Position numbers and translations under genes: made by a program
Shown here: in pieces, positions 26,218 to 51,710 of the stretch
Position numbering within the stretch: the first letter of the stretch is position 1
Layout: each line of letters opens with the position of its first letter
Assembly: GCF_026151205.1 (NCBI RefSeq)
Contig: NC_087077.1
Span: 6,782,483 to 6,846,482 of the forward strand
Direction of reading: 5' to 3'
DNA length: 64,000 nucleotides
From: Bolinopsis microptera
Lineage: Eukaryota > Ctenophora > Tentaculata > Lobata > Bolinopsidae
Notes under the pieces: model-generated
Told to the model about the DNA's origin: nothing
Database searches by the model: none
What the model saw: the letters and a program-made list of their open reading frames with translations, nothing else

Positions 26218-27380
26218 ATGACACAGTTATATATTGGAAACTTACCCGATGATTGCTCAGAAGATTTTTTAAGAAACCGATTTGAAAACCATGGAAAGAT
26301 AAAAGAGGTTTGTAATTATCTTATCTTATCTTATGAGGATTCGTTGCGACGCAACAAGGCCATCGAATGAGTCGACCACCTTTGTTATTTTACTTCGGCA
26401 TTACCTGCATTACAATGTAAACCAGCACTTTCAAGGAAGAGCTTTACAAGAAGCCGAAGGATCGTTCCTAAGGCCAGCAACGGTTAAGGCAATATGCCAC
26501 ACTTTCTTCGCCCGAGGCTTCGCTGTGTTGATCAAGCACAGCTCCTCATTTAACCCTCACACCAGATTTCTCGAGCATTCGGCTGAGTGAACCGTGGGGC
26601 TACATAGACCACTCGGGACCCTTAGCAGAGCGTCAACGACGCTCACCCCACGACTAGGCAGGCAGTGGGATTCGAACTGGCAATCTTACGATTACAAATC
26701 CGATGATCAACCAACTACGCTACCTGGCGATGATGATCACTGAACGATAATGACTCATGTTTTAATCCATTCTGGAAACAGCAATGTTTCGACAAAAACA
26801 GAGTGATGTGAATGTATTAATAAAATTTACATTCTGTATTACAATTATACCAGTGGCGTTACAATTTGAATGGTTCTCCTTATCTTGCACTTGTTGCTTC
26901 ATGAAGTTGCCACTTTATCTCTTCAGATATTACTGAAAGGGAAGTTTGCATTTTTGGAATACCATGATCCCAGATCTGCTGAGTCAGCGATCAAACACGA
27001 GAAGGGTTTGTTTACTTAGTTGTTGGGGCTGTAACATTCTTCTACTAATGTTGATTGATGATACTAATAAGAGTTTTTTTACTATTTAATCCTCTTGTGT
27101 GTTTCCGTTATTTAGACTGGTTGTTTTTCGTTCAACGAAATGATGACGTAACTAATTAGGAGGTAGGACATTTTCAAAAAAATGTTAACTATAAAGTTGC
27201 ATAAACTAACACCACAATTTCTAGAATAAGGCCCGAATTTCAGCTGTTCATTTTTCAGAGTTGCTTGACAGTTCCAACAACCTGCTTCTTGATGTAGAAC
27301 TGGCGAACAAACAAGTGAAGCCAATGAAGGGGCCGGTCACGCTGCACATACTGAACTTATCTAGCAGCGTTAATTGGGAG
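26218..27380 (+). CDS. IGF2BP: IMP-like exons 1-3: RRM1 and start of RRM2
   Basis: Exon 1 starts MTQLYIGNLPDDCSEDFLR, a classic RNP2 strand (LYIGNL). Exon 2 supplies the RNP1 strand KGKFAFLEY and the helix PRSAESAIKH. Exon 3 completes RRM1 and opens RRM2 with VTLHILNLSSSVNWE, matching the IMP RRM2 pattern (I.I.N.P..L.WE). Both of the first two donors are GTTTGT. The ATG lies in a purine context (AAAGATGA). Confidence 0.8.
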
Positions 27381-30300
27381 GTAGGATCTTAAATTCTTAC
27401 TACTTTAATAGTTAATTTCACTGGTTTGGTCTTTGCTATATCTCGAAAAGATACTCGCCTTTTCTGACAAAGAACTTTGGTAACACTGGTGGCATAATGA
27501 ATCATTTTATCAGTATGAACGTAAATTGCACCCTTGCTCATGCTGCATGTTTTCTTGGTTAATATGAAATTTTATGCCTTCAGCATTGTAAGCTTGTATC
27601 AGTAACATAGATCTTAAATGAGCTCATCTTGCTCAAAGCGGGAACACAAGATTAGAATAAACTTTGTTCTTAAATGCGCTAACCTTGCATCTAAGCGCAT
27701 TTGATCACTTACATTAGTTGATATTAATCATATATCGTGAAGTTTGGTTTTGTCAAAAATTATGCGAAACAACCTGCATAGGTAATATGTGTATTATCCA
27801 GATCAATTTCTGAATGTTTTTAAACGAGCAGTTGAGACGCTGTCATTTACGTATCATACAATGGCCATAATGTGGACGTTTCCCCTTACTAAAAATATTA
27901 ATCACAAGAGCATGATTGTGTTTTTAAAGAAGCTTAAATTGCAAAAAACACGCAAATCATATTCTCAGTATTTCGTGGCTTGATGTAATGCTTAATATTT
28001 TCAAAGCTAAATCGACTTTATGTAACCAGATTTTAATTTACACTCGAATTCACGGTTATCAGTAATCGGTATTGATGTTTAAATTCTACTGATAAGAAGG
28101 TAATTGTGAGTGATAATAAATCGACACTTACTTCAAGATTTTTTGTTTTATGTTGTAATTTCTACTGCGACCAGACATTTGTTTTTTACTACCGTTAGCT
28201 TATTAGCTTATTGAATATCGAATAATATTGCTGTTCTGTACCTATAAAAGGCAACTATCTGGTAAGGATGTCGTCCAAAGTTGTCTTTCAAAGCGCAAAA
28301 AAATTCGATTGATCGTTTAAAAATATTTATTTCTGAACCAACTTTCACATTTAACTCCCTTGACCACAATTGATAAAATAAAACAATTATCAATTAATTG
28401 ATTAATTTCCACTTGACGCACATGTCTCGAAATTAAAGTTCGCTTTTAAATGACATTGACATAATGAAGCTCTCCATTTTATGAATAATCATAGGGAATC
28501 TCTCGGCTTACCTGACTGCCAAAAAAGCTCACGTCCATTGCATAGTAGACGTAGCAATTTGCTGTCGAATTTTATCACGGTAAACTATTAGTATCGTCTG
28601 TCATAAGAATCTCTTATTCGGCTGAAAGTAGTCCCCTGGACCTGACGACTAACTACACATACTTCACATACATAATACCCATCACTTACTGATTTTCCTG
28701 ACAAGAGTTTCTGTAATGACGGTAATTTTTGAGAGAAGTCGCCTCAGCTCCGTCACACTGCATAAGCTCATAAACAGCAGCTAATAATACTAATAATTGC
28801 TCTCATTAGTCATTACCACCGTATGTTGAAACCACAAGTTCTTAAGTAAAGTGGTTAAATGCACGATACAGCTCTCATCTCCCCACATTAAAACCACTCT
28901 TGGCAGTGTTCCCGACCCTCCTAATCCGAGCACTCTCCTTATCCCTGTACCATTTCGCCATGCCCTTGTTGATCATTTTGTTTTACCAAGCTTCTAGAGC
29001 CCGCACTGCCTCAGTGGAACTAGTCTCCACTCACTCCCACCAACCTACAGCCTCGCTTAGCATGCTTCTATCAAACTTGACCATAAGTCGCACCAAATGT
29101 TACAAGTCACGTGACCTTGCCCTGCCCTCTCAGAAACTAAAGATTATGCTGGGGAGTGTTGGTAATCTACAGAAGGCGGAGTTGATGGATGACGGAGACG
29201 ATAGTAAGTGGAAGAGAGGAATCGTGACGTATGATTTGAAGGAGGACGCTCAGAATGCCATAGAACGCTTCCACGAGACTCCTTTTGAAGTAAGTGGAAG
29301 AGGTTATTTTTGTGAAACCAACTCTGTCTAACTTTACATAATTACGATTTCATATTTGTAGAAACAAAGTAAATTACATTTTACCCTCGTTAAACTATAA
29401 TTGACTATACTTTTCGTCATGTTAAATAACTTTATTTAAGAAATAGCGACTAATTTAACCTGGTCTCCTGTCCCAGAACACTCGGTTACAGATAATCTGT
29501 CCTGAACCCGGGCCAAATTCCCCCCTCAAGCAAGACAAATCCCGATCAAGGTTTGTCACATTTAGTTTTGCTCAACATGGTTCACCCTCACTCTCGTATG
29601 TTCCAATTCACTTCCATTTTAACTCTCATCTGATGTCATATTTCTCATTTTATCTCACCGGGGGGTACCAATGGCATAAATGGCATAATGGAGAATTGGC
29701 CAATAAAAATTTCCATTTATGCCATAAAACGTATGCCATTTATGCCATTTTTGATATAATACATTTCTATTTTCTTTATTTGTCACATGAATCTTTAACG
29801 ATCATTCCAAGCGTTATAAAGCATGAAACATGTCTCTTATTCAAGTACTAATAATAATTTGCGAATTTAAAGTCAAATATGAAGACCTAAATTCATGGCA
29901 TAAATGGAGAATTGGCCAATAAAAATTTCCATTTATGCCATAAAACGTATGCCATTTATGCCATTTTATGCCATTGGTACCCCCCATCTCACCTTATTTC
30001 AAGCTAAATGCTTGTTAAAACAGATCACTCCCAGCCCAACTCATTAATTTATCATACATATCATTCACTCAACTCAGGAAGAAATCTGAGCTCCATAAAC
30101 AGACACAACCGCCAATAGAAAGGTACGCCTACTACAGAAACACGGCACACGCGCACTCAATACATCATATTTTATATTACATAATACCTGGAGCAATTTT
30201 TCTTTTTTGCACTGGCAAACAAACCTAACCATTTTTGATGTTTATAGTGTAACCGTTTCGACAATTATCCGAGAAACCTTAAATATAAACAAGTCGATCC

Positions 30301-33300
30301 TTAAAAGTTGCTTCTTAGCGATGGTTGTGTTTCTTTCCAATGCGACATCTCAACAATTCACATATTTTAATAACCCAAATCTCACGACTCTCCTCCTCCT
30401 ACAGGAAGGTGTCATGTGACGGGAGGAAGAAGGTCGACGAGACGAAGAGAGTGGACGATGGCACGTTCCCTGTGAGACTCGTCGTACCGAGCAATATGAT
30501 AGGAGCTATCATTGGAAAGGAGGGCAAGACAATCAGGAAGATTACTGATACAACCGGGGCAAGGTCAGTTATTTTCCCAAACCTAGTGGTCACGTGGCTT
30601 AATATTTTTATTAGGGAATGACTTAACTGCCAATATGTTAAATTTTGTCAGCCTCGATCACATAACATTAAACATTAACACTTTATCTCTCTGCAGAGTG
30701 GACATACACCGAAAGGACAATGCTCACAGTTTAAAGAAGGAGATCACAGTATTCGGGAGTGCGGAGGTGTGCAACCAAGCTATCGCCATGATTCTCCAGA
30801 TCATGCAAGACGAACGGGCTACCCTCAGCAAGGTCAGCACAATTTACCAGTTTCGGGATCGATTATTTTTCCAGTTGTAGGAGAATATATACGCGGTTTT
30901 TGAACAGGGTGGATCAGGACTCAGGAGAGAATGGAACCGATTCGTTCATAGACAGCAAGGCTGGAGATGGCACTGCTCCCAAATTTTCTTAACCAGTTAA
31001 CAATATTGAAAATCCCAGTACGCTTTTATAAGATATCTGTCGTTAGGGGAATATGAACGGTACGATATAATAAACAAATTCGAGAAATCTAGCCAACAAA
31101 CAACGATACAGTACAACAAACTGATAACAATTTAAACGAGCCACTTCAACTTAAGGTTAGAATAACTTAGAAAACTTGTGGGAATGAATTGGCAGGTTTT
31201 GAATAACAGAATAAGTGTCACATGTTTTGAAAATTTAGCTCTCAATATTCCTACTGTGCTAATGGTATGAGTAAAAATATTTACTTCACAGAGAATAAGG
31301 TAGTACTAGTTGGAAAGTTAACATCCATTAACCTCTTGAAAATATAGAAAATATTTAACAAATATCAGAAGAAGATGAATGGTAGTTACCTCTATTAAAT
31401 TTGACACACTTAGGACGTAAGGACTGGTAAGAGTAGTTAATCCCTTTCTCACAAGTAATCACACTACTGCGAAGCAGCAAGTACTGAGGATCACACTCTA
31501 CTGTAATAGCAGTTCCGTATGTGATAGGAAATGTGGCGTTAGTTGACAGGTGGTTTTCAAACATCATCCCCGTGCAGTGATCTAGAGATTAGAGCTTTAT
31601 AATTATATTAATATCTTCTTGAAATCTTATTGTATTGTACTTTCAATTCAGGTTTTTGGGCGGTTTTAAAGTTTTTTAAATATATCATAAATCAAGATAA
31701 TCATACCTATGGTGCAAGTTGGGCGTTGACCGAATATAAAATAAGTGCCTCGGATACAAGTGATCTTATTATCCCCGGCGAGAGTGTGACCAGGCTTGCA
31801 GTTCACTTCCACCACTGTTCCTACTGCCACGGAAAAGGTGCTGGTTGTTATCATATCTGATACAACTGTTGGTAGTTCTGTACACGTGTCTGGGGGAGAT
31901 TGGGTCAATACTTCTCAACTTTCTTGTGATTGCTCACCTTCAACACTTTATTTTTAAACTCGATCAATTATGATGTTCCTGACCAAGCCTCAACCTACAT
32001 TGTTTAAATTTAAAGTAACCATATTATTGTCTTAAATTTGATCCTTCGAACAGCTGTTGAGCAATGAAACGCAAACATAATCTTAGCAAAATGAATATAT
32101 TTCTTTTATCTTCAGCATTTAATCAGTCACATAATCTGAGAATATCAATGGTTAGGTTGAAAATGTCAGAAATTCTCATCAAAAATGTAGTAAAGTCTCA
32201 AAAAATTAATTAATTAATTTAGCATCTCGTCAAAATGGAATAGCTTAAAATCGGAACAAAATTAATGGCATATACTATAATAATGTGGAGTCTGCAGTAG
32301 TTCATTAAATCAAAAAGACGCAATTCTAAAATTGATAGACTGCATATATAAACGAAAAATGGACGATTTAAAAATAAAATTCGGGACACCATGAAAAATT
32401 AGCTTCCAGAAACGGAATTCACATTGTTCAGGCCAAACGGATAAAGTGTCTTCAATTTGTTAATATAAAACTGTTCTGACATATTATTGTAAAACATAAA
32501 AGAATGTAAATAGTAAATACCCACCGAGGGCACATCCAGGAGTTTCGCTATACTCCCAGATCTTATCCTTGATGCAAGTGATAACTGTGCTCCCTGACAG
32601 ACTATATCCCGGGATACAGTCCACTTCCACACTAGTTCTAAACTAGCTCTAAACTGCCAACAGCAATTCGAACAATTCACTGATAAGATAGCAATTGATG
32701 ACGAAAAGATATCTATAGAAAGGTTTTTTCTGAACTGACAAGCTAATTGGTTTATAGTTTTTATTGAACTGATGACTATTATTGGAGTGAATGGTCACTG
32801 AACTGTCTCGAAGTTCAGTTATAATACCAGAGCGCGATCAATTAATCTTGCTAACGGAAAGGTTACAGTTTATAATAATATAATACCTTCGCTTTTGAGG
32901 GCTACGCGTGATAATTCCCGACAGCTTGCTGGAGGGAATTTGCGGCCCGAAGAAGCGAAAAAATAACACGGTCTGGGTCAATATTTCGGTGCTGCGAATC
33001 GCGGTGGTGTACGTCTCTGGCACAGTATTAGTAGCACGAAAATGCTGTAGGTCACGAGCATACACCTGCACGTGCACTGTTACGTAAACATGCACGTGCA
33101 TTCTGTTTTCTTTTTTGTTCCGATTACCAAGATAATAGAACTGTAAAGGTGTGCACGGATAAGCTATCTAACCTGGTTATTTTCTTTAAAGTTATGGATA
33201 AGCGGGCCGAATTCCTTCCGGCTCGGCTTAATTATTACTACATAATATGGCCGGAGCCAGTACCACGTGATCGGATGATCACCTAATAAACTTTTCTGAC

Positions 33301-36300
33301 GAGAACAACAAATTGATATAATAACATCTATAAACGAAAGGGCACCCAAAGAGGCTCAGCAAATTGCTGGCCTATTTACGCTTTCTAAGACTCCTCCGGG
33401 GGGGGGGGGGGGGCCAATGACTACTTTTGGGGACTTGGGGAATTACGTCAACGATTTTACCCCGAGTCCCCATGATTTTTAGTCCCCATTAGTCCCCAAA
33501 AGTCTCCATTAGTCCCTATTTAGATGATTTTTAGTCCCCATTAGTCCCCAAAAGTCTCCATTAGTCCCCATTTAGATTTATCCTACTCTTATCTTGGACA
33601 AAACATCTCGATCGTATCGTTATTAAACTAACTTGAAAAACATAAATAACTGTCAAAAATTCTGGGGACTTATGGGGACAAATGGTGAATTACGTCAACG
33701 AGTTGACCTCTAGTCCCCATGATTTTTAGTCCCCATTAGTCCCCAAAAGTCTCCATTGGTAGTCATTGGCCCCCCCCCCCCCCACTCCTCCGTTCAATAT
33801 GTTTTTATAGTAAATAAACTCTTCCATTCTAGTAGTAGTTGATCCCTCGCTAAGTTCACCAAGTTGGTTAAATCGTCCTCATTTTTTAAACAAATTGATA
33901 TAAGTTTTTAAAATCAGTCATTTCAACTGACAGAAACAATGTCAATACTACACGAAATTATATAGAACCATTTAGATCCGACGTTTAAAGCGAGTTCACA
34001 ATGACTGATTGTGATATTTGCAATGTGAGAAAGGGTGTGCTTTGAAATATTATTATGATTATTTAAATTTCTCACGACGCGATTGTATCCTCTAAGTGAT
34101 AAGTCTGATAAGTTGTTAGAGGATTGGATATGCTATAAACCAAAACGTTGGTGCACTGGCTTGTGGGTCACCTTGCAGAAAAGCAAGCATAAGTTTATAG
34201 TCAAAATATATCTGTCCATGCCATTGCTCTCTGCCCAGATCAATACTCTTTTTGCGATAGACATTAGACACCGAGGGCAGCAGATCGTACGAATGTTCAT
34301 GAGCGTCTTTCAAGTCTGAGTCCAAGTATTCACATAAACGTGGTGAACTTTCAGGGTAGGGAAAATAATTGGCCCACAAAACGTACCCTCCTAAAATAGA
34401 CAAAGACTAAATATCCATATTATGCTATACTCCTTTGGGGTATTTTGCGAGGCCAGCTATTTTTAGAAGATTAAATCTTCAGCTAAGTTAATGACTTGGT
34501 AAAAGCAGCGACTGAGATTGGTGGGCGGTGGGTCACAAATACAGAATACAGACCTTCTCTTACCACGGAGTAAGGATCTTACTTCGCTCGGGGCAGGATT
34601 TATTGTTTTCTATGGTCAAAATGGAATCAAGCCATAATAAAGGGCGCTCCGATAAGATTCAGACAAAACATAGCATATACGTATACTTAACACCTAACAA
34701 TTATTCATATATTGAAATAGCCAAAATCTTCAGTAGCTTAGAGGTCTTACGACCAAGAGCTGTGTATTTGGAGCAACCAGGAAAACTGAGTGTGATACTA
34801 TTACTTAGTCTAGCTACTTATACCTTGTATAAAATGTATATTATATAACTCGTTTGATTGAATTGTTATTCTCAGCCGCTCAGGAGGCATATATTTTGGT
34901 CCCCAAGGAGAACCTCTAGCAAGCTTATGTTCAATATTAGTTAAGTTGTAATGGCTTAATCTTACAGAATTCACTCCTTGACGATGAATATGATTACAAT
35001 AAGTATCTGCATCATGTATAATATGTGGTATGTGGTGTCTCCCCTGAATATTTTTCCTGGTTCTAGTTTTTGTATTGACCACAACATTAGTGATTAGTGG
35101 GGATGCGACCTAAATGTGTGTTGGTACAAGATGATAAACATAATCAATAATCATGTGCTCATCTAGAAAGAGGTATTCCCAAGCTTTTGACACGTACGTG
35201 TGTGACCAGCACCAATTATACTAATCACAGGGATACGAATATTGCATATATCCGGATTCCAGGGTATAGTTATATTCAAATTCACGCAGGAAAGTAAAGT
35301 TTAGGTCTAGAGACCACAAATAAATTTATACATATTATATGATCACAATGGTGCAAAATTGGAAAAATATGATTCAGTGCTATCTGAGTTTTTAACTCAA
35401 ATTATTTGCTTTATTTAACACCCGTTCCAACTTCAGCCCCAGATGTTGTCATACAAATCGGCGGTATTAGAGTTGTTGGTCCACCACAACCTTCTTATCA
35501 AGATGTTTGGAGACCGGTACAACGGCCTTATGCAACTCATGGAACGAACTATGACTGAGTTAGTGAATTTTTAATTGAAATAGATAGGTTTAATTATTTC
35601 ATGAAATAAAAATCTATCTATATCTGGATTAACTGTCGACTGAGTAGTTACAATCGTTATAAAGATGACCAAGAAATTTAATATTATTTGATAACATTTC
35701 AAACAATATTCTTGATGTCGTCTCACTAAGTCTTCGACACTAAGTTTTCTCCCCATCTTGACCAGCCCTAAATTTCAGGATAACGATAACCCAGTCGGAC
35801 GAACTAGGTAAGAAATCCTCTACAGATCGTCACGTGAATATCATGGGTACACCGGAGAACTGCTGCGCTGCACAGCTTGAGATAAGCGCTATGAACAAGG
35901 ATGCGTTTGAGGTTGACATGGCAAGGATCTACCAGGTACAGTGTTCATTTAATTTTGTATTTTTATTATGTTTTATATTTTTATTACGATGATTCTAGAA
36001 TCTAGATTTGTTCACTGGCGGTTATTAATTTAAGTTTAGGTAGTCAAATTTTAAATATGTCTGATCAATTTGGTATGAAATAGAAAGTTATGTTACATTT
36101 TGTAAAACACACTTTGAAAACAAAATTAATTTTATTGATTATATAATTCCTTTGGCAGTTCCATTCTTATGACCTCATTTCGGTTCGTAATTTCATAGTT
36201 ACATCGTACTTTTTTTCCTAGAGAAAAATTAATCTCAATGATGCATTTTAAAATAGAAAATAATTGCTTTTATTAAGACACAGCTGTTTCTAATGCTACT

Positions 36301-39300
36301 CGGAATAAAATAGCTTCTTAATAAATATGGTTACTAATTCTGAAGAATTTATAATAATCCAAACATTCTGCAGGCTTATTGTTAGTCAACCCGTCAATCA
36401 CGGTCTACAAATTATTTTCTCTTGAACGTATTTTTATTTTATGTACATGTACTTCAAATTTCATTACAAATGGTATCATTTTGTAACATTAAATTTAACA
36501 TCCCTATTTGGACTTTTTTCAGTTTTTCAGCTTGTTTGAACATAATATCTCACTTTCAATTTTTTATCATCTCCAAAAACATTCCATCTCACATTTCAGA
36601 TCGCACCACCCACTAACACACATGTGACCGACTGTCCACCGCTCATTACATCTTCACATTCCACAACCGAAATCTCTTCATCACACCGACCAACGGTATG
36701 TAGTTTGTCTTAAATCGTTTGTAAAACCGCAAGGAATATATCATCAATGCTTCATGGAGCAGTCCGTTTCGGCATCGCTATTGTCTGATGATACTCCCTT
36801 CTGATCTAAAACTTAAACTGTTTGCTAAAGTGACCGCTGAGAACGTCTAAAGTTCTGGATTGTTCTAGGAAGTTCCCAAATTGATCTTCTTCAAAGTTTG
36901 CTCTCGTCTACCACCGACATCCTAGTCTCCTGTCTCGAAACGTGATTAACGTACACCGTTCCTTTCCTTTCATTTGTTTTGTTCTCGAATATGGATCTGC
37001 CTCGCAGTTGGTAGACCATCGGGTTTACTGCGCTGCTAACATACGCTATAAGGTAGGAGCTTGGAGCTAAGTAGAAGATTATGGGAATAGTGATACCGAG
37101 AGCGTCGTATGAATCTGTTACATCCATTAAGATGACAAAGCAAAAGGGAGCGTAGCTGATGAAGAAGACTGCTGCTAGGATGAGAAGGGTGATTGAGGTG
37201 CTGCGATGGGTGTTCTTTTTAGCAGCATTTGACTGCATTTGCACTGGTGCCCTGTAGAGAAGAAGTTTCACTGCCACTGCTACACTGGAAACCACCATCA
37301 CCACAATCGCTAACAGTCTTGGAAACGTTACAAATCCTATATTCATTCGATGAGCAATTGGGGTGTCGAGTTGTACTTCTCGGGTGATTTCATATAGGTT
37401 ATAAACGATCTGACCAGAAATCATTTCAAATGAATAATCGTGTGGGTTAGACTCTAGGTTTGGCACAAAGAAAGGGAGTAGAGCAGCTATCAGTGGATGT
37501 ATCAGCACGATCCCAACCAGTACGCATGACCTGACGAATTCGCTTGTTAATCATCAAAAGGCAACATTCCTATTTTATAATAATCTTAAACGTACAATGA
37601 ATCGATACAAGGGTACAATTTTGAAGTTCAATTTGTTTGTGAGCTTTTTGGCAGAACTGATTGGATTCAACGAAAAATATTTGCCAAATTCTTCAGAATA
37701 CTCACGTTACTGGTGTGAAAATGTGTTTGAACTTGAAGGGTAAGAAAACTCCCACACAACGACTGACAGCCATCAGTGCTATGATATTAGGACCACTGAA
37801 CATCGAGAAGTTATTTAGGATTCCAATTATGATGTTTACTGGCTTTGATGTGGCCAATCTGAAAGTTGTATGTCATGGCCCTTTTTGTTCGTAAACAGGG
37901 GTCGATCATAGAGTTATAATACACCATACTGCTTAAGATAAAACCAGATAAAATTAATGAGGACTTACATTGAGCAGAGGTAGAAAGGTCTGTTCTTGCC
38001 AAAAACCAGCCCGGTCCAACACGAAACTATGCCCATCATCAGGTCCGTTGCCGCAAATGCGGTGTAAAATATTCTGCTTGCTGTGAATCTGCTCTCTTGG
38101 ATAGTTATTTGTTTTCAAGGTAAACAAAGAATTCTTTTAAATTTTCCATCGAGTGCCAAATATTTCTTTTGCTGTAGTAGAAAAGTTCTAGCTATATCTC
38201 AATATTTTATGCAAGTTAAAAGTACATACTTTTATCAATCGTGAGGAAGTAATATAGAGCACAGGCATTCCCAAATACCGCTGCCATTCCGATCAGCGTG
38301 TACAATATCCCCAAAGCTGATTCTGCCTGTCGGGTATACTATTAGTATTAGAAAAGGTGAAGAGAAATGTCATAGATATTATAGATATTATTTAGTACAC
38401 TGTACATGCCTAAAATCCAGATTCATGGGGTAGCATCCATAGCTTCAACTAACTAAAGTTGCGAAAGCATGATCTACTTAGGGGGGGGGGGGGGTGGAGA
38501 TTTGATTTAAGTTGGTGCCACAAAAAAACAACAAAAGTCATGCCCATTTATTCCTCAACTTTTGGTCAAATGGACATAGATGGGAAACCCCCAGGCCCCA
38601 AACCTACCGATTCTTTGTATCCATATGAGGTATAAAGTAAAGTTAACATCTGCGGAATGTTTTCGTAACAAGAACGATCACTTGCATCTCCCATATTACC
38701 TTAATTTCGTCCTTGAGAAATGGTATTAACAAATTTGTAAGTAAGCCTCCACTTGGAAACGCTGACTTTATAACAACAACAAAAACTTATTAAGTTTTAA
38801 AAATCAAAGCAGAATCTGTCCTAGATCAAATATATTAGTAGTATCAACATTAGACATGTAAGATGACATCCTCTTTAAATTGGTCTGGAAGTGGAAGGAT
38901 ATCAATCTAAGAATATCTCTGTTCATTAATCGTACACTCTATAATAGGTACCGTGACAATTGACCCCCCCCCCCCCCCCCCCCCATTGTAATTACACTGG
39001 GGTCAATTGTCGCGAAATCTAGGGTTTAGTACGACAATTGACCCCCGACAATTAACCCTTCTACAATTGACCACCCGACAATTGACCCCCCCATGTAATA
39101 ACACTGGGGGGCAATTCCACCGTGACGGACACCACGATTTTGCTGTTTTTTAAAGTTCAAACGAATGTTGTACTCGAGATGTTGTTTATTTATCAGTTCC
39201 AACTGTTTATTAGCCCACATTTAACCTTTCTACAGGTTGTGTGAAAATTTCAGACCCCTACCATTATTACTTTCTGAGATAGCACCCCTGTGACGGACGC

Positions 39301-42300
39301 GACTTAAATATGACACTTTTTTTGGGTGTCTACTCAGATGGTACCCAAATTTATCTCAAAAAGTTATCTATTGTCTCTAATTTGGAATTACAATGATAGA
39401 AGAAGGTTTAGGGATTTCTGAGATGCTCAATTTTTGTATGCGTGGCGCCATTTTCAAATTGTGACAGACGCGACTGTGACGGACACACGTTTTTTTTCAA
39501 TTTTTCCAAATCTTCCACTTGATACTTTTATCTTGTTCAGTGACATCTACTCTGTATTCATGCCAATTTTTAGGCCTCAAATACCCCCAAGAGGTCTGCA
39601 GTAGCCAAAATTGTCCATTTTGGGCATACGCTAGGGTATCAGTGTAGAGGCATCAATTATTTCTCTACTTGAACAAATTTATAACTCTGGTAAAACATTC
39701 ATCACTGTTCAATGCATCATACTGTTGAGACCATCTCCTAAAAGTTTCATTACTTAAGTGTTTAAAATGTGGAAGATATTGAATTTTTACTTCAAAAATA
39801 TGCGAAAATAGGGTAAAGTCCATTTTTTGTGCCTTTTACCTCTGAAAAAGTTGTAAGCAAATAAAATGGCAAAAACTCAGTAAATTTAATTATTGAATTG
39901 CATATGATGTTATTTGATAGTCTAGTCAACATAGTCAACACAATCCAACCTTATTTGACTTATATTTGTCTTGGTTTTAGTCAAAATAATGGAAATATGG
40001 ATAAAAATGGCTAAAAGTGAGCCGTACGCCCATATATGGGCATATACAAAATTATACATAACTCGGCCATTTTCTGTCCAATTTTCGATTTGACGACATA
40101 GTTTTGTTGACGACGGTCTCAGCTTTAAGAAAAATGCATTTCAAGTCTGTTTAAAGATTTTTTGGAGCATTTTCAAAAAAATGTGACGGACGCGACAAGT
40201 TGGGACCCCCCTTCCAAAATTTTGTTCTTAAAAGATACAAGCCTGATAATTTCTACGGTACTCCCTTACCTTCAGAAGAGATATGTTACAGTGGTTTTTA
40301 AATATAAATAGCACTATGTGGCTCTGAAAAAACTTTATGCTTAATTTTGTGACGGACGCGACACCATCTTTGTGGAAATTTTTAGAAAAAGTGTTAGAGT
40401 AACGGTTTGTGAAACTTTGCATAGCTCTCATTCTTATGCCTATGCCTAAGTGTATGAAATTTCATAGAGAAATATTGCTGCATACCCAAACTATGGCCCT
40501 TTGAAAATTTGAATGATTATTTTCATTTCCGAGTAGTGTTCCTTTGAATGAGAAAAATCAAAAGTTAACGCAATATGAAACAAAAAACTTTTGTTGACCT
40601 GTAAGGTTAAGAGTCTAATGAACATATTTCAACCATTAGGTGCCTATCTTAACATTTTTCATTTTCACCAAGTGGAACCTTACCGTGGAATTGCCCTGGG
40701 GTCAATTGTCGCGAAATCTAGGGCTTAGTACGACAATTGACCCCCCCCCCCCCCCGACAATTAACCCCCTCGACAATTGACCTCCCGATAATTGACCCCC
40801 TATGTAATAACACTGGGGTCAATTTTCGCGAAATCTAGGGCTTAGTACGAAATCTAGGGCTTAGTACGACCCCATGTACAATTACACTGGGTTCAATTGA
40901 TCGGGTTAGGGTTAGGGCTAGGGTTAGGGTTAGGGTTAGGGTTAGGGTTAGGGTTAATTATATTAAATTATATTGTCGGGAGGTCAACTGTCGGGGGGTC
41001 AACCCTATAATATACTCAGATGTTTGACCTGCTATAAGTTTGGCTGCTTTCTACTTAATCTACATTAGTTTATATTCTTCTGTCCTCAATCAGAGCTCGT
41101 CTTGAAAGTAATTTTAAATTCTACCTCTCAACGTAAACTGTGAAAAGAATCGCAAATAAAACTATAAGTCTCTTGTGTTTAATATAAAGTGATATTGGTA
41201 CTTTATCCACTGAAAACATATTTCTTTAATCATTGTGTACGCTTAACAACAAAATCCAGAATCCAAACAAAAATAGCGGTACAGAAAATTACAGGATTAT
41301 TCTATCCACTTAATTGAAAGAAGAAACACCACTCAGAATAACCTCTAACATAGTCTCACGGAGCCGATTAATGATCATTGTCCTGGAAACGAAACCCTGT
41401 ATGGTAACCATCAAGAGGCCCCCATGGGCACTAACTGGTGTAATCTATCGTCATTGAATCTCCGTATGTTTTGGGCGGTTGGGAACTTCTTTAAAAAGAA
41501 ACTTGAAATTTAAAACAGGAAATTGAAATAGCTTCGTAGCGTTTGATTGTACCATTATGTTTATTCCTGAGTTCTAAATATCGCATTCATCCTCTGCGTG
41601 TTTACCCAATAGTTTATATTGTATTATGTAAAAAACGTGAAGTACACTAACATTTAAAAATGGGATTAAGGAGGCTAAAAGAAAACGTGGGTTCTAACGT
41701 TAACAACAAACAGAGAAAGTCTAAATAAAGTCTAGATTTAATTAAGGGTCTACAATGAAAACTTATTGGTGAAATGAAAGAAAATACCCTCAAAATCGCG
41801 TCACTGTTCATAAAGGTGGGGCGTGGCAGTGATATTACGAAATATAACCTGTATATTCAGCGATCTGAGCTTAACACACGAATATGGAGAAGAGACAATA
41901 GATATTGTAATGTGAATAATAAAAATGAGCATTTCCACTAGTCACTACAAATAGTACGTGAAAATATAGACTTAAAGAGTCTGCAGTCTGAATTAAAGAT
42001 TAACACATCAGATCATTTTTCGTATTTCCATAGCAACTGTTGCTCCAAGTGGCCTAGTACTTTTACCAAACCAATAGCACAGTCATTATTTGAAATATGG
42101 ATAAGGTTTTATTGAACTCAGATACTCTGCAAAAAACAAAAGTAAAGAAGTTGAAGTATTTATCTCCAGCCATACCAAAAACACTCCCACCGACCACCTA
42201 CTCTTTGAGTACTCTTTGAGTACTCTTTGAGTACTCTTTGATGTACATGTGTAGCTCAGTTAGAACGATCTCTTGATAATCATAGTGATAGGTGCAGTGG

Positions 42301-45300: not shown

Positions 45301-48300
45301 TTATGCAAGAAAGACCAAGCCCTGTTTTGATCTAGCAGGCGTACTACAATAATAAACTTTGTACAACTGTGATTGGTTCAAGAAACGTGTCCTTGTCTCT
45401 GAAGTTCTAGACGTTACATAACATAATAAAGACTAAAGTTATTAGATCATGTTAGAGTCTGGTAAAATCCCATCAATCTGGCATAACTCGCAACGAAATT
45501 AAAATCGAAACTACTGCTATTAATTTTGTCCGATAATTCTGATGTGATAGCCTTAAATCAATCCTGATTCCTGGTGCTGGAGCATTAAAGTAGATTTTAT
45601 GGCTGATAAGGTCATTCGCCTCGATGTGTCCTACATCTAGTTCGATTTCATTTACATGATTCTTTACTGGTCCTCTGTACTCTAAACTTCAGACCACATC
45701 TCTAGTCTCTACCAGTACCGGTACTGGTGGTACAAATAAGATCAGGCCCTTACTAAGCATCAAATGAAATCAGGTAAAGATCATTCGTCTCTTTTTGTAA
45801 TCATCTTATTGCGAATAGTAGCCAAAACAATAATTGTCTGAATATCCTAGCATAGTTGAGTACAGCGCTGAGAATAGCGACCTAATGGCCAAATTCAAAT
45901 TATGACAATTCTCGATTGAGATGGAGCACTTTATTTATTTTTACTGTAATTTTTGGTATTCGTTTTAGCTTTGATAATCATTTATTTTAGTACTTGATGT
46001 ACTTAATGTTAGATAATTAATTGAAATATGAAAGTTGACGAAAGATAATAAATCCATATCTGTAAATAATCTATAAGTAGCTGGAGTCATACTGATAACT
46101 GGAGGAAGCGACTCGTCATTAAAGTTAACATAGCAACTTGAGAACTGTAGCGACAACAGTTCAATAAATTGTGGTGCCGGCAACAGTTCAATAAATTGTG
46201 GTGCCGACAACGGATTGTATCGACAAGAGTTCAACGTATTGTTGTCACGGAGTGTCTGCAACAGACATTAATCTATCTTAGAGCCGTCTTCTCGTTCGGA
46301 AATTCCGCTCAGACTAAAGGTCACAAAGTTACCCGCCAATTTACTTAGACAGGTCCGCCATAAGTTTCTAGTAAGTTAGTAACCTGATGACTGATTGTCA
46401 CCATTAACAGCTCCTTACAACACGCCATATAATCACGGTTCAACATCAACTTATTATTATCATGTCATGTAACAACATATTATCATGTTTTCTTATTATT
46501 CTGACCCCTTTTTTTTCAATTTATAGTTTAACATATTTATCTGAACACTAAACAGTTTAGTCTCCAAAAATTAATAAAATACATTAAGTCACATTTTAAA
46601 ACACGCAATTTCAGATAACCCAGGGCAACCCTGGCAATGGAAGTATGAACAACAGTATGAACAACAGTACGAACAGTATGAACAACAGTATGAACAACAA
46701 CCAACCTCCTCATCACAGGTCCCCTGGATCCTACAACATGGACCACATGAGACAACAAGTCAGTACTATCAATTACTCAATCAATTAATTTAACCAAATA
46801 ATCACCAATTAGTAATATCTCATCCCGATACCTCGTGTAAGCCGCACGCATACGCCGGCCGTTGCGGCTTTATCAGTTCTCAGGCTCTTTGTGAATTTAA
46901 GCACGGGGACTTGTGTCCTCTATACCTAAATATTTTCACCGAAAACAAATTCACTGAAATCTGTGTGATGTTTTTTCGATATTTTCACTTTTTTAATCAA
47001 TTCAATAACAAACTGACATCACGTGACACCTCATGATCTTCTCATCACAGCAGTCACAATCACAGCAGTCACAATTACAGCAGTCACCCAGCACAAGTCT
47101 CCCTCCACTCTCACTCCTTCTCAATTTACCTGACCTCACCAACAACTCACCAAACCAAACTAACACAAATCATAAGAGGAAGGAACAGCGCGAGCTGCTG
47201 GAGAAATTACTTGAAATGACTTTGATGAAGAAGGTAATAAAATTCCCATCGAGCATAAAAAGTGACAAGTGCAACAAACAGGTACCTACACTGTACACCA
47301 TACGGCATGATTCATACGGCATTCAGTTACAATTTCAATTACAATTTCAATTTTAAACAAAACACCTTCATTTACCAGAATCAAATGAGTCAACACAGGA
47401 ACCCACCCCCCAAGATGAGATACGGTCCAGAGAATCCGGTACGTAACTTTTATTAAATAAATTTGAAAAACATTTTGGGCTGTCACTCAGTTTACTATAG
47501 GTCTGTTTGTGGCTTTTGATCTCATCAATTACCAACCAATTACCTAATTTATAGATGTGGATTCTCTGGGAGGAGTGAGGCATACTTTGTTACGTGACAG
47601 TGATTCTGGGTTTTTATTGGTCAATAGTCCAAGCTGATTGGATAATTACTACCAATTGTAATTACTAACCAAATAAGCTAACTAATTATTACCAGGTTCC
47701 TAACAACAGCATGGTGGCATCCCCTCCTCGACCACACCCTCAATTATCCCCTAACACCATACTCCGACTTCTCTCTGACATTCGCGGCAAAAATATGAAC
47801 GAGGTACAAATATATTATAAATAATTCAGTAGGGGAGTCCAGCCAATATCCAACCATGTAAAACAACTAAGTTTGACTTAAAGACCCCAGATTTCTCTGA
47901 AAACAACCATTATGGTCGCTAAAACCCCTTATTATAATGAATAACCTTATAAATATCCAGGATTAACAATTTACGATTCTTCATAACGGTTGAATGACAA
48001 GACAAGGTCTGGGCAATAGAGCTAACTTTAGAGGTCCTTATCTTTACTAATACACATTATATGAAATGACACATTACATGGGTTATTGGCAAACAGTAGG
48101 ATACCACAGCCCCACCCCACATCGGTTGGGCGACCCAGAAAACACGATCTTCACAATAGTATTGGTCACCATTATTCATTGATTTACTGGTGCCAAATAA
48201 TGGTTTATATTACTGAGAATCTCGTTGATTAACTAACGCATAATTCTGAATAGGTAGAATATGAAACTATTATAATTTAATAATATAATTTAAATTAATT

Positions 48301-48454
48301 TTGCCATTCGTCTTTTTGTTAGCGAGATAAATTTGATGAGTAATATGATCATACAAAGTAATTAAATTAATTAAATCATCAAACCTATTATTTTTCCAGT
48401 ACCAACGAGAACAACAGATGGTATTAGCAGGACAACTGGCACATGACTACATGC

Positions 48455-48485
<31 letters not shown>

Positions 48486-51400
48486 GCAGCAACAGCAACA
48501 ACAACAACAACAGCACCAACAACAACAGCAACAGCAACAACAAGGCTCCCCTCCGACTCCACTCCCTCAAAACCAGGTAAAGTATAAAAGTATGGTAATT
48601 GGATATTAATTTATAGATAAGCTGATCAATGCCCAACTAATTCTATGCGTACTGGGGCAAATGACGGGATATAAAAACACATGACAATTGACAGTGGTAC
48701 GTATGTGTTAAACACAAAACATGAGTGTTTCACCTTCACTTGAATCTAATAACTCATTTGATTGCAATCGTTTAAAATGTGTAAAATAATAAAATCCCAC
48801 AGTCAAGGTACTCGATATCGACTCCTAAACGTCCAGTCCTTCAAGAGTCACCCTGGATGGATAAGCCACCCTACATGGATAATATGCAGGGTTACAGTCC
48901 CTATCCTCCCCGAGCATACGACCAACGATCTCCTGTAAGTCTTACTTACTAACTGATTTTATTAATTAATGGATACTGCCACACACCACAAGTCATTACA
49001 TTAACTGCTAGGTGGTGGTAAATGGTCACAGCAGACTCTCAGAATACCATATCAAATCACAGAATATCAACAACAAGATACAAGGGCAGGTCTCTCCCGA
49101 ACGTTGGGATGGCCTGAGGTGCTTATCTCCTTTTCAGTAACCCTAAGCCACTCTGCCGAGGCACTATACTAGCTGTAGGGGGGTTAGTTTGTTAGGTAGG
49201 GGGGTACGCAGAATATCACTTACAATAAAAGTCAAACACCTCAAACCACGACGAAATTTGCTCCGTACACTGACAAATCGTCCTACCTACTAGATCAAAT
49301 ATCGATTTAAAATGATAAGGAACAGTCATAAATATCCCTACCCTTCTGATTGTATTATCAAATTATCAATATAAAGTTAATAACTGTTGGAATCGATTCG
49401 ATATAACTTACTGTTTTTCCATAATAAGTAGATACTGTTCACCGTATGTTACCTGTAATTTATACAAAAACTAAACTTTACGTTACATTCGATGAAGGAA
49501 TGCGCTAACTGTTTTTATTACTATCCATACCCTTACCAAGTACCCACGAGCATAATATGCTCCAACCACTAATACTGCACAGACATCCCTCCAGTTTAAC
49601 AAGCTCATCAGCTCACATCCCATCTTTATTGATATTCCCTTGGTGGCGCTGTGTCTCTTCTGTGCCAAACACAAGGCTAGTTTCGTTAATGTACCAACTA
49701 TGAGGATATCATTTCAGATGAAGCCTACTCGAGGTTACCCGGTGGACTACGAGAACATCAACATGTCGAGTCTGCTAGAGGGATTGGAGGAGATAATTGG
49801 GACACATGACGGGTCATGTGATAGTGGGATCCAAGCTAGTCCTCAGGTCCAGGCTTCATACTTCCAGGGCAACTACAACAAGCAGCAACCCAGAGCTCGT
49901 GAGTCAGGAGTGTTGTGTTATTTTCTCCTTGACAGTCCCATTGGCATTACATTATTTAGCCGATTATATTATCTGAATCATTCCTTTGTTTTGAATTTTG
50001 CACAGATTTATTTTTCCTTATATACCCTATTTTGTTATCAGCTTACTGGCAGTCTGAGACAGACAAAACTGGAGCAAGGCCTCACAACCCGGTTCCTCCA
50101 CCAAACCATAACTTCAACAACAGTGCTGGTGAACAGTCTTACTACAACTCATCAGAGGACAATTCTAATAATTTCCCCAGTCTGAATGGTGAGTAACCTA
50201 TTTAAAGCTATTTAGAACTACTTCAGGTAGCGGAATGAAGAGAATTGTTGCCTCCCAAATGTTCGGGTAGTATTTGCCTGAAATTATGGTCTGTTTAACG
50301 GCGCTCCACCTCAACTAATAGTTTAAAACTAACAGATTACAGTGGTCTGATGAACTCCACCTCGTTCATGGAAACGTCTGATTTCCTCTCCAACTCTCTG
50401 CTCCGTAAAGGATCTCAATGGAGTGACCCTGATGACAGTCTGTCCGTGTCCGGTTCTTTCACTATCGAGAACTCCAACCTCAGACGGGTAATTAGTTAAT
50501 TAATTTAATTAGTTAATTAACTTTTTCATTCACGAAATGGATATATTTCGCAACTTATATGCACTGAGAGCGATGGTCACGTGATCTTCAAGAGCTTCTT
50601 AAGAAAACAGTTTCGCTTTGATAGACTTAGGAGACACTATGTTCCAGGAGCTGCAGTCTGATTTGCCTAGCTCTGGTAAAAGCTATTACAACCAAGTTCA
50701 CGGAGGACAGAACCAAGTTCAAGGAGGACAAAACCAAGTTCAGGGAGGACAGAACCCTTTGAACAATCAATCCCACACCGGAAACTATAATGGAGCCTCA
50801 GAGGGTAATTTCAATTATAGCTGCCTTTCTCTTTTATTAGCCTCCAGTTAACAGTTAACAGTTTGAACACTTGAGACGGTTTAGACCGGATGGATAATAC
50901 ATAATAGAGGCATTTATCTTCAATCAACTTCTATAAAATGAATATTAATTAGACCCCACTGAGGCCAGTGTCTGGTTTGATCAGTAGCGTGGTTCTGTAC
51001 TAGCGTGGTTCAGTAGCGTTGTTCTGTAATTCAAACTACCATATCTCTTAGTTGCAGGAACTCCAGGGCTGACTACAGGAAACATGGTGGAGTGGAATAC
51101 TACTATTCCACTCTATGTGGGACAGAAGATTGAAACCATCAAACCACAACTGGAACAAATGACCCGTAAGTCAATTAATTAATTAAATTTAATTGATCTG
51201 CAGTTTTTTTCCTCATCCAAGTTTAGTATTTCAAAGTTAAAGACGTATAACATTATGTTTTGGACTTAAGAATGAACTTTTGGACTTGAGAATGAACAAC
51301 ACTTTCTCTCCTGTTATAGAAACGAGGATTGACCTACGACAGAGCCCTCAGAATGAACAGTTCGTTAACTTGAAGTCTGCTGGAACTCCTGATGGTATAC

Positions 51401-51710
51401 AGGTACACAATGTTTTTTATTATCATTCAATTTTGTCCCACAATTGTCCCAATTTGGTGATTTTCGATTTTACAGATCTTTCACCGGGATTCTGACTTTC
51501 GATACTTCAGTCGTGTCTTTACGTAACAAACTATGAAGTAAAACCCAGATTTACCTCATCTTACCCCCATTTACTGTATTTCTTCTTTTCTCCAAACTAT
51601 ACGGCAAATTGGAGTCATACTGTATTCGCTCCAGTCTAACCTATCTCATTTCTAAGACCCTGCAGTATAAAATCAACATGGCGTGCAAGAAGGCCCTCAA
51701 CGTCATGTGA
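26218..51710 (+). CDS. IGF2BP: IGF2BP/IMP-like RNA-binding protein, RRM1-RRM2-KH1-KH2-IDR-KH3/4-like
   Basis: Predicted exons: 26218-26307, 26927-27005, 27259-27380, 29134-29289, 29477-29550, 30078-30122, 30405-30563, 30697-30832, 35437-35558, 35779-35935, 36600-36695, 46615-46758, 47051-47233, 47379-47438, 47696-47803, 48400-48576, 48803-48934, 49718-49898, 50042-50188, 50336-50494, then 50625-50804, 51058-51165, 51320-51402 and 51666-51710. Phases agree throughout and give about 980 aa. RRM1 is at residues 1-75, RRM2 at 83-160, KH1 at 209-285 with an intact GKEG loop, and KH2 at 295-365 with GDRY replacing GXXG. Residues 381-830 are Q/N/P/S-rich with poly-Q. KH-like segments are at about 828-870 and 915-980. 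IMP proteins bind mRNA in the cytoplasm and control its localisation, stability and translation. Family membership is well supported by RRM2 and KH1/KH2. The join across 36696-46614 and the C-terminal KH assignment are inferences. Alternative ends exist at 30992 and 51526. Confidence 0.65.
26312..26740 (-). repeat. tRNA-derived SINE, copy 2, in intron 1 of the IMP-like gene
   Basis: The reverse strand reads an A box-like TAGCGTAGTTGG and a B box AGTTCGAATCC, then the same body as the copy at 35-367. It ends in an ATAAG simple repeat (plus strand TTATC repeats at 26316-26332) that forms the SINE tail. It begins only a few bases after the exon 1 donor at 26307. The tail repeat next to the donor suggests the 3' end of the insertion. 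Confidence 0.8.
29134..29550 (+). CDS. IGF2BP: IMP-like exons 4-5: remainder of RRM2
   Basis: Exon 29134-29289 (acceptor CTCTCAG, donor GAA/GTAAGT) encodes KLKIMLGSVGNLQKAELMDD and then GIVTYDLKEDAQNAIERF, the middle of an RRM. Exon 29477-29550 closes it with NTRLQIICPEPGP, the counterpart of the last strand of IMP RRM2. The long open frame that begins upstream at 28900 is read-through of the intron, not extra coding sequence. Confidence 0.8.
29660..29985. mobile_element. 326 bp MITE with GGGGGGTACC ends and 8 bp duplication
   Basis: Inverted ends GGGGGGTACCAATGGCATAA and complement are flanked by a perfect 8 bp duplication ATCTCACC (29652-29659 and 29986-29993). The interior holds an internal duplication of TGGAGAATTGGCCAATAAAA and many ATGGCATAAATGG words. 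The 8 bp duplication points to a hAT-type transposase acting in trans. It sits in the intron between exons 5 and 6 of the IMP-like gene. Confidence 0.8.
30405..30832 (+). CDS. IGF2BP: IMP-like exons 7-8: KH1 domain
   Basis: Exon 30405-30563 encodes FPVRLVVPSNMIGAIIGKEG, the KH core with a canonical GKEG loop. It joins 30697-30832 in phase 2 to give RVDIHRKDNAHSLKKEITVF. The VDIHRK(D/E)NA segment is a signature of IMP KH1. The helix NQAIAMILQIMQDE closes the domain. This is the strongest identification in the window. Confidence 0.9.
30908..30992 (+). CDS. possible alternative terminal exon with poly(A) signal
   Basis: After exon 8 of the IMP-like gene an acceptor (TGAACAG, 30907) opens a frame reading VDQDSGENGTDSFIDSKAGD to a TAA at 30990-30992. 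AATAAA at 31069-31074 follows. The frame needs a phase 2 donor, whereas exon 8 ends in phase 0; the phase 0 reading instead stops at 31000. If used, it would make a short RRM1-RRM2-KH1 isoform. The phase conflict keeps confidence low. Confidence 0.3.
31069..31074 (+). terminator. AATAAA polyadenylation signal
   Basis: A canonical AATAAA lies 77 bases after the candidate stop codon at 30992. It would end a short IMP-like transcript. The hexamer is common by chance in AT-rich DNA. Confidence 0.3.
31355..32642 (-). CDS. sushi (CCP)-domain protein, partial, nested in an intron
   Basis: Three - strand exons join in phase 1: 32525-32642, 31707-31889 and 31390-31581. Each carries sushi hallmarks. 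The first has VEVDCIPGYSLSGSTVITC and W..SETPGC. The second is a complete repeat (C TELPTVVSD, VEVNCKPGHTLAGDNKITC, RPTC). The third is complete (DHCTGM, VECDPQYLL, ITCEKG, RPKC) but lacks the usual Trp before the last Cys. Phase 1-1 exons, one domain each, are typical of sushi genes and of secreted or surface proteins. The first exon holds only the second half of a domain, so an upstream exon is missing; without further splicing the frame stops at 31355. No signal peptide was found. It lies in the IMP-like intron 30833-35436. Confidence 0.7.
32880..33083 (-). CDS. weak candidate exon, unassigned
   Basis: A - strand frame more GC-rich than its surroundings reads ARDLQHFRATNTVPETYTTA and IRSTEILTQTV, ending near a GAAG/GTATTA donor. 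An acceptor GTGCAG precedes it. It might be an upstream exon of the sushi gene or of the gene starting near 35756, but the phase could not be matched to either and no domain is recognised. Confidence 0.2.
33398..33783. mobile_element. 386 bp MITE with poly-G/poly-C termini
   Basis: The element starts with a run of 16 G and CCAATGACTAC and ends with the complement GTAGTCATTGG and a C run. An 8 bp duplication ACTCCTCC flanks it (33390-33397 and 33784-33791). The interior repeats AGTCCCCATTAGTCCCCAAA several times. The end structure resembles the MITE at 29660-29985 (G run, then CCAATG), so the two may share a transposase family. Confidence 0.8.
34172..35756 (-). CDS. unrecognised gene, possible type II membrane protein, at least three exons
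   Basis: Two - strand exons, 34824-35043 (acceptor ATTCAG, donor CAAG/GTATAA) and 34172-34390 (acceptor TTTTAG, donor CAAG/GTGACC), join in phase 1 without stops. They read RHHIPHIIHDADTYCNHIH, HKLARGSPWGPKYMPPERL, GYVLWANYFPYPESSPRLC and REQWHGQIYFDYKLMLAFL. The aromatic and His content looks like a folded, possibly enzymatic, luminal domain, but no family was recognised. A candidate first exon starts with ATG at 35756: MGRKLSVEDLVRRHQEYCLK followed by a hydrophobic stretch at residues 23-37, as in type II membrane proteins. Its donor is uncertain and it lies inside an IMP-like intron, so it may be spurious. Downstream exons were not found. Confidence 0.45.
35437..35935 (+). CDS. IGF2BP: IMP-like exons 9-10: KH2 with altered GXXG loop
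   Basis: Exon 35437-35558 (acceptor CTTCAG, donor GA/GTTAGT) encodes AVLELLVHHNLLIKMFGDRY and the helix LMQLMERTMTE. Exon 35779-35935 continues ITITQSDELG and RHVNIMGTPENCCAAQLEI. Aligned with IMP KH2, the hallmark GKEG becomes GDRY, while ENCC-A-Q-EI in the last helix is conserved. Loss of GXXG normally removes nucleic-acid binding by a KH fold while leaving its structure. The 35940-36599 interval is intron. Confidence 0.8.
36891..38694 (-). CDS. class A (rhodopsin-family) GPCR, complete, five exons
   Basis: Exons on the - strand: 38608-38694, 38230-38326, 37969-38095, 37706-37858 and 36891-37542, all GT-AG, joining to 371 aa. A TM1 acceptor 12 bases upstream would add four residues. Visible marks: a short N-terminus with Cys, GN in TM1 (Asn49), AATDLMMG in TM2 (Asp79), Cys102 at the top of TM3, SRC (136-138) in place of DRY, FFISYAPF in TM6 in place of CWxP, and NPMVY (328-332) ending TM7. 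A cytoplasmic tail of about 40 residues follows. Receptors of this class couple extracellular ligands to G proteins; the ligand cannot be told. The ERC-like TM3 end recalls prostanoid receptors, but TM7 is NPxxY, so it is left as orphan. It is nested antisense in the predicted IMP-like intron 36696-46614. Confidence 0.85.
39110..40695. mobile_element. 1586 bp DNA element with GGCAATTCCAC ends
   Basis: The ends GGCAATTCCAC (39110) and GTGGAATTGCC (40695) are inverted and flanked by a 6 bp duplication CTGGGG (39104-39109 and 40696-40701). The duplication splits an otherwise continuous satellite unit, confirming insertion. The interior carries about six copies of (G)TGACGGACGCGAC or close variants near 39121, 39290, 39465, 39475, 40183 and 40350, and no coding frame. 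No superfamily was assigned with confidence. Confidence 0.75.
40903..40956. repeat. interstitial telomere-like (TTAGGG)n array
   Basis: About nine near-perfect GGGTTA units, one changed to GGGCTA, lie inside the GACAATTGACC repeat block. The TTAGGG unit is the common animal telomere repeat. Unique sequence and a gene continue on both sides, so this is an interstitial array, probably carried with the repeat. Confidence 0.85.
41011..46614. other. intron or intergenic DNA, no supported gene
   Basis: Nothing protein-like was supported on either strand. Small features: a four-copy 11-mer ACTCTTTGAGT at 42200-42240; a 35 bp palindrome at 42461-42495 (arms CAATTCCAGGATACTAA); two CACGTG motifs (44592-44597, 44614-44619) with an inverted CCAAT at 44598-44602; and a 27 bp duplication around AACAGTTCAATAAATTGTGG at 46150-46204. 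The frames at 44685-44996 on both strands lie in a GC-richer patch but show no domain. Confidence 0.5.
42461..42495. repeat. 35 bp palindrome
   Basis: CAATTCCAGGATACTAA is followed almost at once by its complement, making a hairpin with essentially no loop. It may be a replication or slippage product. No function is assigned. Confidence 0.7.
46615..48934 (+). CDS. IGF2BP: IMP-like exons 12-17: Q/N/P-rich disordered region
   Basis: Six exons, all phase 0 at both ends: 46615-46758, 47051-47233, 47379-47438, 47696-47803, 48400-48576, 48803-48934. They encode reiterated SMNN units, a QS-rich stretch, KEQRELLEKLLEMTLMKK (one LxxLL-type motif), RLLSDIRGKN, a poly-Q tract of about 30 residues (CAA/CAG mixed, 48450-48542) and a Pro/Tyr/Asp stretch (PWMDKPPYMDNM). 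The mixed codons suggest a selected, not recently expanded, poly-Q. Assignment to the IMP-like gene rests on phase and on the KH-like C-terminus; by itself this block could be an unrelated Q-rich protein. Confidence 0.6.
49718..51710 (+). CDS. IGF2BP: IMP-like exons 18-24: linker and degenerate KH3/KH4-like segments
   Basis: Exons 49718-49898, 50042-50188 and 50336-50494 give a Ser/Asn-rich linker that ends FTIENSNLRRVI. Splicing to 50625 adds NLGDTMFQELQSDL, resembling IMP KH (RVIGKGGKTVNELQ) with GKGG replaced by NLGD. Three GGQNQVQ-type repeats follow. Exons 51058-51165, 51320-51402 and 51666-51710 give IPLYVGQKIETIKPQLEQ, TRIDLRQ, FVNLKSAGTPDGIQ and ACKKALNVM, with strands and the closing helix of a KH domain but no GXXG. 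An alternative last exon 51476-51526 is also open. The donor at 50494 (GTTAAT) is weak; GTAATT at 50488 would break the frame. Confidence 0.6.

Follow-up and report, generated by a model that had tools for sequence, protein, structure and literature searches.

Does a ctenophore gene that begins like an IMP/IGF2BP gene also end like one? This question is raised by a locus at positions 26218-51710, on the plus strand, of a 64,000-nucleotide stretch of the Bolinopsis microptera genome (assembly GCF_026151205.1, contig NC_087077.1, positions 6,782,483 to 6,846,482), which we call the window. In embryos and neurons, mRNAs are transported and their use is timed by IMP proteins; ctenophores, in turn, matter greatly for the question of how neurons arose. 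The original prediction for this locus was an IMP homolog with the domain order of the family kept, KH3 and KH4 included. Our analysis leads to a different answer, to which we assign a probability of about one half: one gene of this lobate ctenophore encodes a divergent IMP/IGF2BP relative with RRM1-RRM2, KH1-KH2, a long linker, and a KH-like remnant, without a KH3-KH4 pair.

The predicted N-terminal part is of the IMP/IGF2BP type. Two features of this family, an IMP-type KH1-KH2 pair and tandem N-terminal RRM1-RRM2, are present. In a comparison with PDB proteins, KH1-KH2 matched IGF2BP1 KH12 best (6qey, E 1.4e-29), followed by IGF2BP3 KH12 (7.1e-26); the best protein outside the family was PCBP2 (E 1.6e-13). 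KH1 is identical to human IMP1 KH1 at 37 of 72 aligned residues (51%) and keeps GKEG. KH2 is identical to its IMP1 counterpart at 25 of 81 aligned residues (31%), its extended last helix is aligned, and GDRY stands in register with GKEG, the second glycine of GXXG being gone. The predicted homology was thereby borne out for KH1-KH2, with two RRMs upstream, as were the canonical KH1 and the KH2 with GDRY. IMP3 RRM12 aligned over the whole RRM pair (residues 1-155, E 5.2e-5, 26.7 bits). Pfam hidden Markov models, run on the first gene model (without exon 5, see below), recovered the first half of the predicted domain layout as two RRM_1 and two KH_1 stretches; no KH was returned in the C-terminal part. 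A third family feature, GXXG in all four KH domains, was not found: KH1 has GKEG, KH2 GDRY, and the C-terminal segment GQKI. For this reason the protein is to be called an IMP relative or variant and not a canonical IGF2BP.

The gene model has 23 exons on the plus strand (26218-51710) and encodes 955 residues; every intron is GT-AG and phases are consistent. Splice sites were scored in bits with a matrix derived from the model's own sites, and for leave-one-out scores the site in question was excluded. The features are as follows.

26218-26307, plus strand: exon 1, start codon and RRM1 RNP2 (LYIGNL); Pfam RRM_1.
26927-27005, plus strand: exon 2, RRM1 RNP1 (GKFAFLEY); acceptor 10.2 bits leave-one-out.
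27259-27380, plus strand: exon 3, end of RRM1 and start of RRM2; model and splice scores.
29134-29289, plus strand: exon 4, RRM2; Pfam RRM_1 (two stretches).
29477-29550, plus strand: exon 5, final RRM2 strand (FENTRLQIICPEPG) and linker towards KH1; acceptor 9.1 and donor 7.2 bits.
30405-30563, plus strand: exon 6, first half of KH1 with GKEG; Pfam, PDB match, and six-frame KH scan.
30697-30832, plus strand: exon 7, second half of KH1; PDB match and six-frame KH scan.
35437-35558, plus strand: exon 8, first half of KH2, GDRY replacing GKEG; PDB match and Pfam; donor 1.1 bits leave-one-out.
35779-35935, plus strand: exon 9, second half of KH2 and extended last helix; PDB match and six-frame KH scan.
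36600-36695, plus strand: exon 10, beginning of the low-complexity linker; splice scores.
46615-46758, 47051-47233, and 47379-47438, plus strand: exons 11-13, linker; model and splice scores.
47696-47803, 48400-48576 (polyglutamine), and 48803-48934, plus strand: exons 14-16, linker; model and splice scores.
49718-49898, 50042-50188, 50336-50487, and 50648-50804, plus strand: exons 17-20, remaining linker; model and splice scores.
51058-51165, 51320-51402, and 51666-51710, plus strand: exons 21-23, C-terminal KH-like segment (GQKI) and stop codon; alignments and profiles.
51476-51530, plus strand: possible alternative last exon (IFHRDSDFRYFSRVFT and stop); acceptor 8.0 bits, compared with 6.5 bits for 51666.

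The exon coordinates, GT-AG borders, and phases of the earlier model held; its length of 980 residues did not, and exon 5 had to be added. A search between exons 4 and 6 for a frame-restoring piece with good splice sites gave two candidates, 29477-29550 and a shorter form of the same exon. Exon 29477-29550 is needed because it completes RRM2, and FENTRLQIICPEPG presumably corresponds to the final strand of RRM2 in human IMP1. A start of exon 6 at 30409 was rejected (acceptor -3.9 bits); the acceptor at 30405 scores 10.6 bits and fits with exon 29477-29550. By leave-one-out score the splice sites are mostly good, the weakest being acceptor 50042 (0.6 bits), donor 35558 (1.1), and acceptor 48803 (2.2). 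The alternative last exon, if used, would cost the KH-like segment its final helix.

The KH3-KH4 pair, which is a feature of IGF2BP/IMP, was found neither by a six-frame scan of the window nor in the linker nor by a genome search, although these searches could miss a pair that introns interrupt. In the six-frame scan, open stretches of at least 15 residues were compared with two KH profiles. KH1, as two separate pieces, and KH2, in its second half only, were detected at E <0.001 and no further KH was seen in the window, the next matches having E 0.98 and above; the first half of KH2, in exon 8, itself escaped. When a KH profile was applied to 89 linker windows of 75 residues, none scored above 0.2 bits. 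Human IMP1 KH3-KH4, used as a genome query, had no match in this locus, and between 36.7 and 46.6 kilobases (kb) no phase-0 exon passed the thresholds used.

A KH3 had been proposed earlier in the sequence RVINLGDTMFQELQ. Splice-site scores speak against it, as does the first of two KH profiles, while the other profile is less clear; we therefore rejected it. The proposed domain needs donor 50495 (-0.0 bits) and acceptor 50625 (0.5 bits), whereas the rival junction 50487/50648 scores 8.6 and 9.1 bits (7.6 and 6.6 leave-one-out). This junction drops VINLGDTMFQ, and most of the proposed KH3 is spliced out. With the first profile, 1001 of 1591 reported shuffles equaled or exceeded its score; with the second, 16 of 1679 reached it, at only 1.8 bits. 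The predicted KH3 was thus not borne out.

The last 75 residues, which read GQKI at the GXXG position, are probably a degenerate KH-like segment that is assignable to neither KH3 nor KH4. Using an IMP-KH profile and a broad KH profile, both free of window sequences, we found that 14 and 42 of 5000 shuffles, respectively, reached the score of the segment. Earlier profiles that included the window's own KH1 had given 2/1939 and 6/1840. In Smith-Waterman comparisons with IMP1 KH1 under four scoring schemes, 0, 0, 4, and 0 of 2000 shuffles did as well (z 7.8, 6.8, 4.4, and 7.0). For KH3 the count was 140 to 202 of 2000 and for KH4 208 to 1393, with z of at most 1.7 in all four schemes. Since the segment resembles IMP1 KH1 and not KH3 or KH4, it cannot be called KH4, and the claim of a kept domain order is not supported. 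Sixty-seven other KH domains from this genome served as a control: they average z 9.2 against IMP1 KH1 and 8.3 to 8.7 against KH2-KH4, their averages against all the IMP KH domains lie at z 8 to 9.5, and 49 of them reach z 7.7 or more against IMP1 KH1. An ordinary KH domain thus matches every IMP KH, and the C-terminus only KH1 (z about 7 to 8), so we did not accept this similarity as orthology. A FUBP1 KH match (E 0.24) came below matches to MIPZ (E 0.097 to 0.13), and neither exceeds what chance would give. KH1, KH2, and the C-terminal segment are alike in having an intron immediately ahead of the second strand (residues 227, 313, and 914 mark the exon borders). A second C-terminal KH without GXXG, as predicted, is therefore weakly supported by its KH-likeness and finds no backing in a Pfam family. 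Among the three KH domains said to have lost GXXG, KH2 clearly has, the C-terminal segment probably has, and the third is not supported.

Between KH2 and this segment lies the linker (residues 366-882). The long low-complexity insert predicted after KH2 was recovered, with 517 residues in place of 450. It contains 14.1% Q, 12.6% S, 10.8% N, and 10.3% P, with 14.3% charged residues. Exon 48400-48576 encodes polyglutamine runs of 20 and 9 and has 27 CAA and 8 CAG codons. Judged by composition, the linker has the low-complexity, Q/N-rich character of the prion-like stretch in Drosophila Imp. By this composition and the fly precedent, it may be disordered and condensate-prone. The linker also carries DSGIQAS (49820-49840, residues 700-706), which is similar to DSG-type degron motifs.

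Several observations weigh against a single divergent IMP gene. That 26-36.7 kb and 46.6-51.7 kb form one transcript is plausible, as far as can be inferred from sequence; the predicted intron between 36695 and 46615 would measure 9.9 kb. The locus may instead hold two genes: an IMP-like one with only RRM1-2 and KH1-2 (26.2-36.7 kb) and, at 46.6-51.7 kb, one for a Q/N-rich protein that closes in a KH-like segment. In that case the long linker would be an artefact of joining the two. We regard this as unlikely, though as deserving serious weight. The joining intron contains, on the minus strand at 36891-37550, a rhodopsin-family receptor fragment (7tm_1 positions 150-260, 29.2 bits, cut-off 30.5), and if the reading frame is followed beyond exon 10, a stop appears five codons on. 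The matching phase of exons 10 and 11 is weak evidence for joining, because many junctions here are phase 0, and trans-splicing in ctenophores keeps the idea of two genes alive (PMC8527503, available part). However, exon 10 ends in a good donor (8.1 bits leave-one-out), and no AATAAA or ATTAAA was seen in 36691-38000, 1.3 kb past that exon, as none was seen in 51401-53500 either, which reaches 1.8 kb beyond the last exon. Nested genes in introns are frequent in a ctenophore, 2357 having been counted in Hormiphora (PMC8527503, same part). A Sushi (complement control) exon on the minus strand at 31666-31914 (Pfam 27.6 bits) lies within the KH1/KH2 intron, so that nesting does occur within this gene. 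Moreover, a KH-like end suits an IMP gene.

Other observations concern the C-terminus, which may not be KH at all: one gene would then encode RRM1-2, KH1-2, and a long low-complexity prion-like tail without KH3-KH4, an alternative we think quite improbable. The KH resemblance of the segment is weak and its rejection as KH3 or KH4 counts on the same side, as does the similarity being largely confined to IMP KH1. Pfam assigned no family to the segment in the first model, and the broad profile gave it -2.0 bits on the full protein and the 42 shuffles mentioned above on the segment alone. hhalign returned P 0.004 and 0.017 with probabilities of 8.4 and 2.7 percent, which is too weak alone, both template alignments having held the window's KH1. 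Yet the KH1 alignments, the 14 shuffles reached with the IMP-KH profile, and the intron position common to KH1 and KH2 speak for a KH. It is very improbable that a normal KH3-KH4 pair is present but was missed, be it interrupted by introns, confined to a different transcript, or absent from the assembly. The genome was searched frame by frame with introns disregarded, a procedure which an intron-split pair may elude, and the six-frame scan of the window overlooked the first half of KH2, but that scan, the IMP1 KH3-KH4 query, and the phase-0 exon search showed no such pair in this locus. Further points against a divergent IMP protein lie in its N-terminal half. RRM1-2 taken alone score higher with SRSF1 (33.9 bits), Nab3 (33.8), and NONO/SFPQ (31) than with IMP3 (26.7), so the RRMs are not diagnostic of IMP. 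S254, C257, and H265, interface residues of KH1-KH2 conserved across species (PMC6486635, available part), correspond by our numbering to N, I, and Q here, which leaves it uncertain whether KH1 and KH2 still fold as a pair. As a yardstick for the searches, human IMP1 KH12 did find the window's KH1 in a local tblastn, with 42% identity over 48 residues (44.7 bits); among the matches listed, however, unsplit KH pairs of other genes scored up to 62.8 bits, at 22-29% identity. Finally, according to the available parts of two sources, KH34 is the major RNA-binding part of IMPs and its GXXG mutation abolishes binding (PMC6768852), so a protein without KH34 may work quite differently, and the RRMs of vertebrate IMPs are described as not needed to bind RNA (PMC6565635).

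If a single IMP relative is encoded, RNA would be held mainly by KH1, perhaps together with RRM1, and KH2 would be retained for its structural part in the pairing with KH1. The linker of about 500 residues might supply multivalent, granule-forming contacts, standing in for the missing KH3-KH4 clamp. The first two steps are suggested by human IMP1, where, in the available part of the source, KH2 alone binds with a dissociation constant of about 100 uM, compared with 0.5 uM for KH1, and GDDG in KH2 abolishes binding without disturbing the fold (PMC6486635), and by the major role of KH34. IMP3 KH12 requires the same RNA motifs as KH34 (PMC6768852, available part). A share of RRM1 in RNA contact is possible, since RRM1 keeps the aromatic residues of the RNP consensus.

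Compared with vertebrate IGF2BP1-3 (IMP1-3, ZBP1), the ctenophore protein shares RRM1-RRM2 followed by an IMP-type KH1-KH2 with GKEG in KH1 and the extended last KH2 helix. It differs by GDRY in KH2, about 517 Q/S/N/P-rich residues after KH2, and the KH3-KH4 pair not found. Drosophila Imp belongs to the IMP family as well and has a low-complexity domain rich in glutamine, a prion-like domain that acts in Imp granules (PMC6565635, available part); the ctenophore stretch is more than 5 times longer and placed after KH2, and RRMs are present in the ctenophore protein. Bicaudal-C (BICC1) offers a precedent for KH-like domains without GXXG next to canonical ones, and has a C-terminal SAM domain, RRMs going unmentioned in the available part of the source (PMC9491823). 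The Pfam family for BICC1 KH1 scored weakly on KH2 here, below its cut-off, whereas KH1-KH2 match IMP best.

If there is one gene, an IMP layout without the KH3-KH4 pair would be an unusual redesign. Such a relative would show what the remaining protein can do, and whether a linker of low complexity is able to take the place of a folded clamp on RNA. The change in its KH2 affects precisely the loop in which mutations are made experimentally to abolish binding. On the boldest reading, which we consider decidedly unlikely, the animal mRNA-transport protein would come in two distinct architectures at the base of the animal tree. In the open-access literature searched, no paper named both "ctenophore" and "IGF2BP", and none combined "Mnemiopsis", "RNA-binding protein", and "KH domain"; among the six papers listed with "ctenophore" and "mRNA-binding protein", no title concerned IMP.

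As far as genome searches see, the gene is single copy: no second IMP gene was found in whole-genome searches with the N-terminal query or with human IMP1 KH3-KH4. With residues 1-339 of the first model as query there were 60 matches, 8 of them in the locus and the others generic KH or RRM domains of at most 34 bits. Human IMP1 KH3-KH4 gave 39, none in the locus, with 45 bits for the best and 21-38% identity, all generic KH. The linker plus C-terminus gave 8, of which 7 were in the locus and the eighth (E 0.47) contained stops. With an E limit of 0.001, a KH_1 family search of the genome yielded 108 matches; the stretches around many of them were inspected by eye, and none was like IMP KH1 or KH3-KH4.

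The window has a guanine plus cytosine content of 32-40% in 4-kb steps. Several repeats or repeat-like stretches lie in the introns of the gene. A tRNA-like stretch resembling a short interspersed nuclear element lies in intron 1 (26340-26740), and by eye a peptide much like it appears on the minus strand at 55-399. The intron after exon 5 contains, at 29660-29985, an element resembling a miniature inverted-repeat transposable element, with perfect 21-nucleotide inverted ends and an exact 65-nucleotide internal direct repeat. Within the long intron, an interstitial TTAGGG array occurs at about 40904-40957, and a repeat-like stretch at 39100-40700, judged by eye, shows recurring words like gtgacggacgcgac with C-rich runs nearby.
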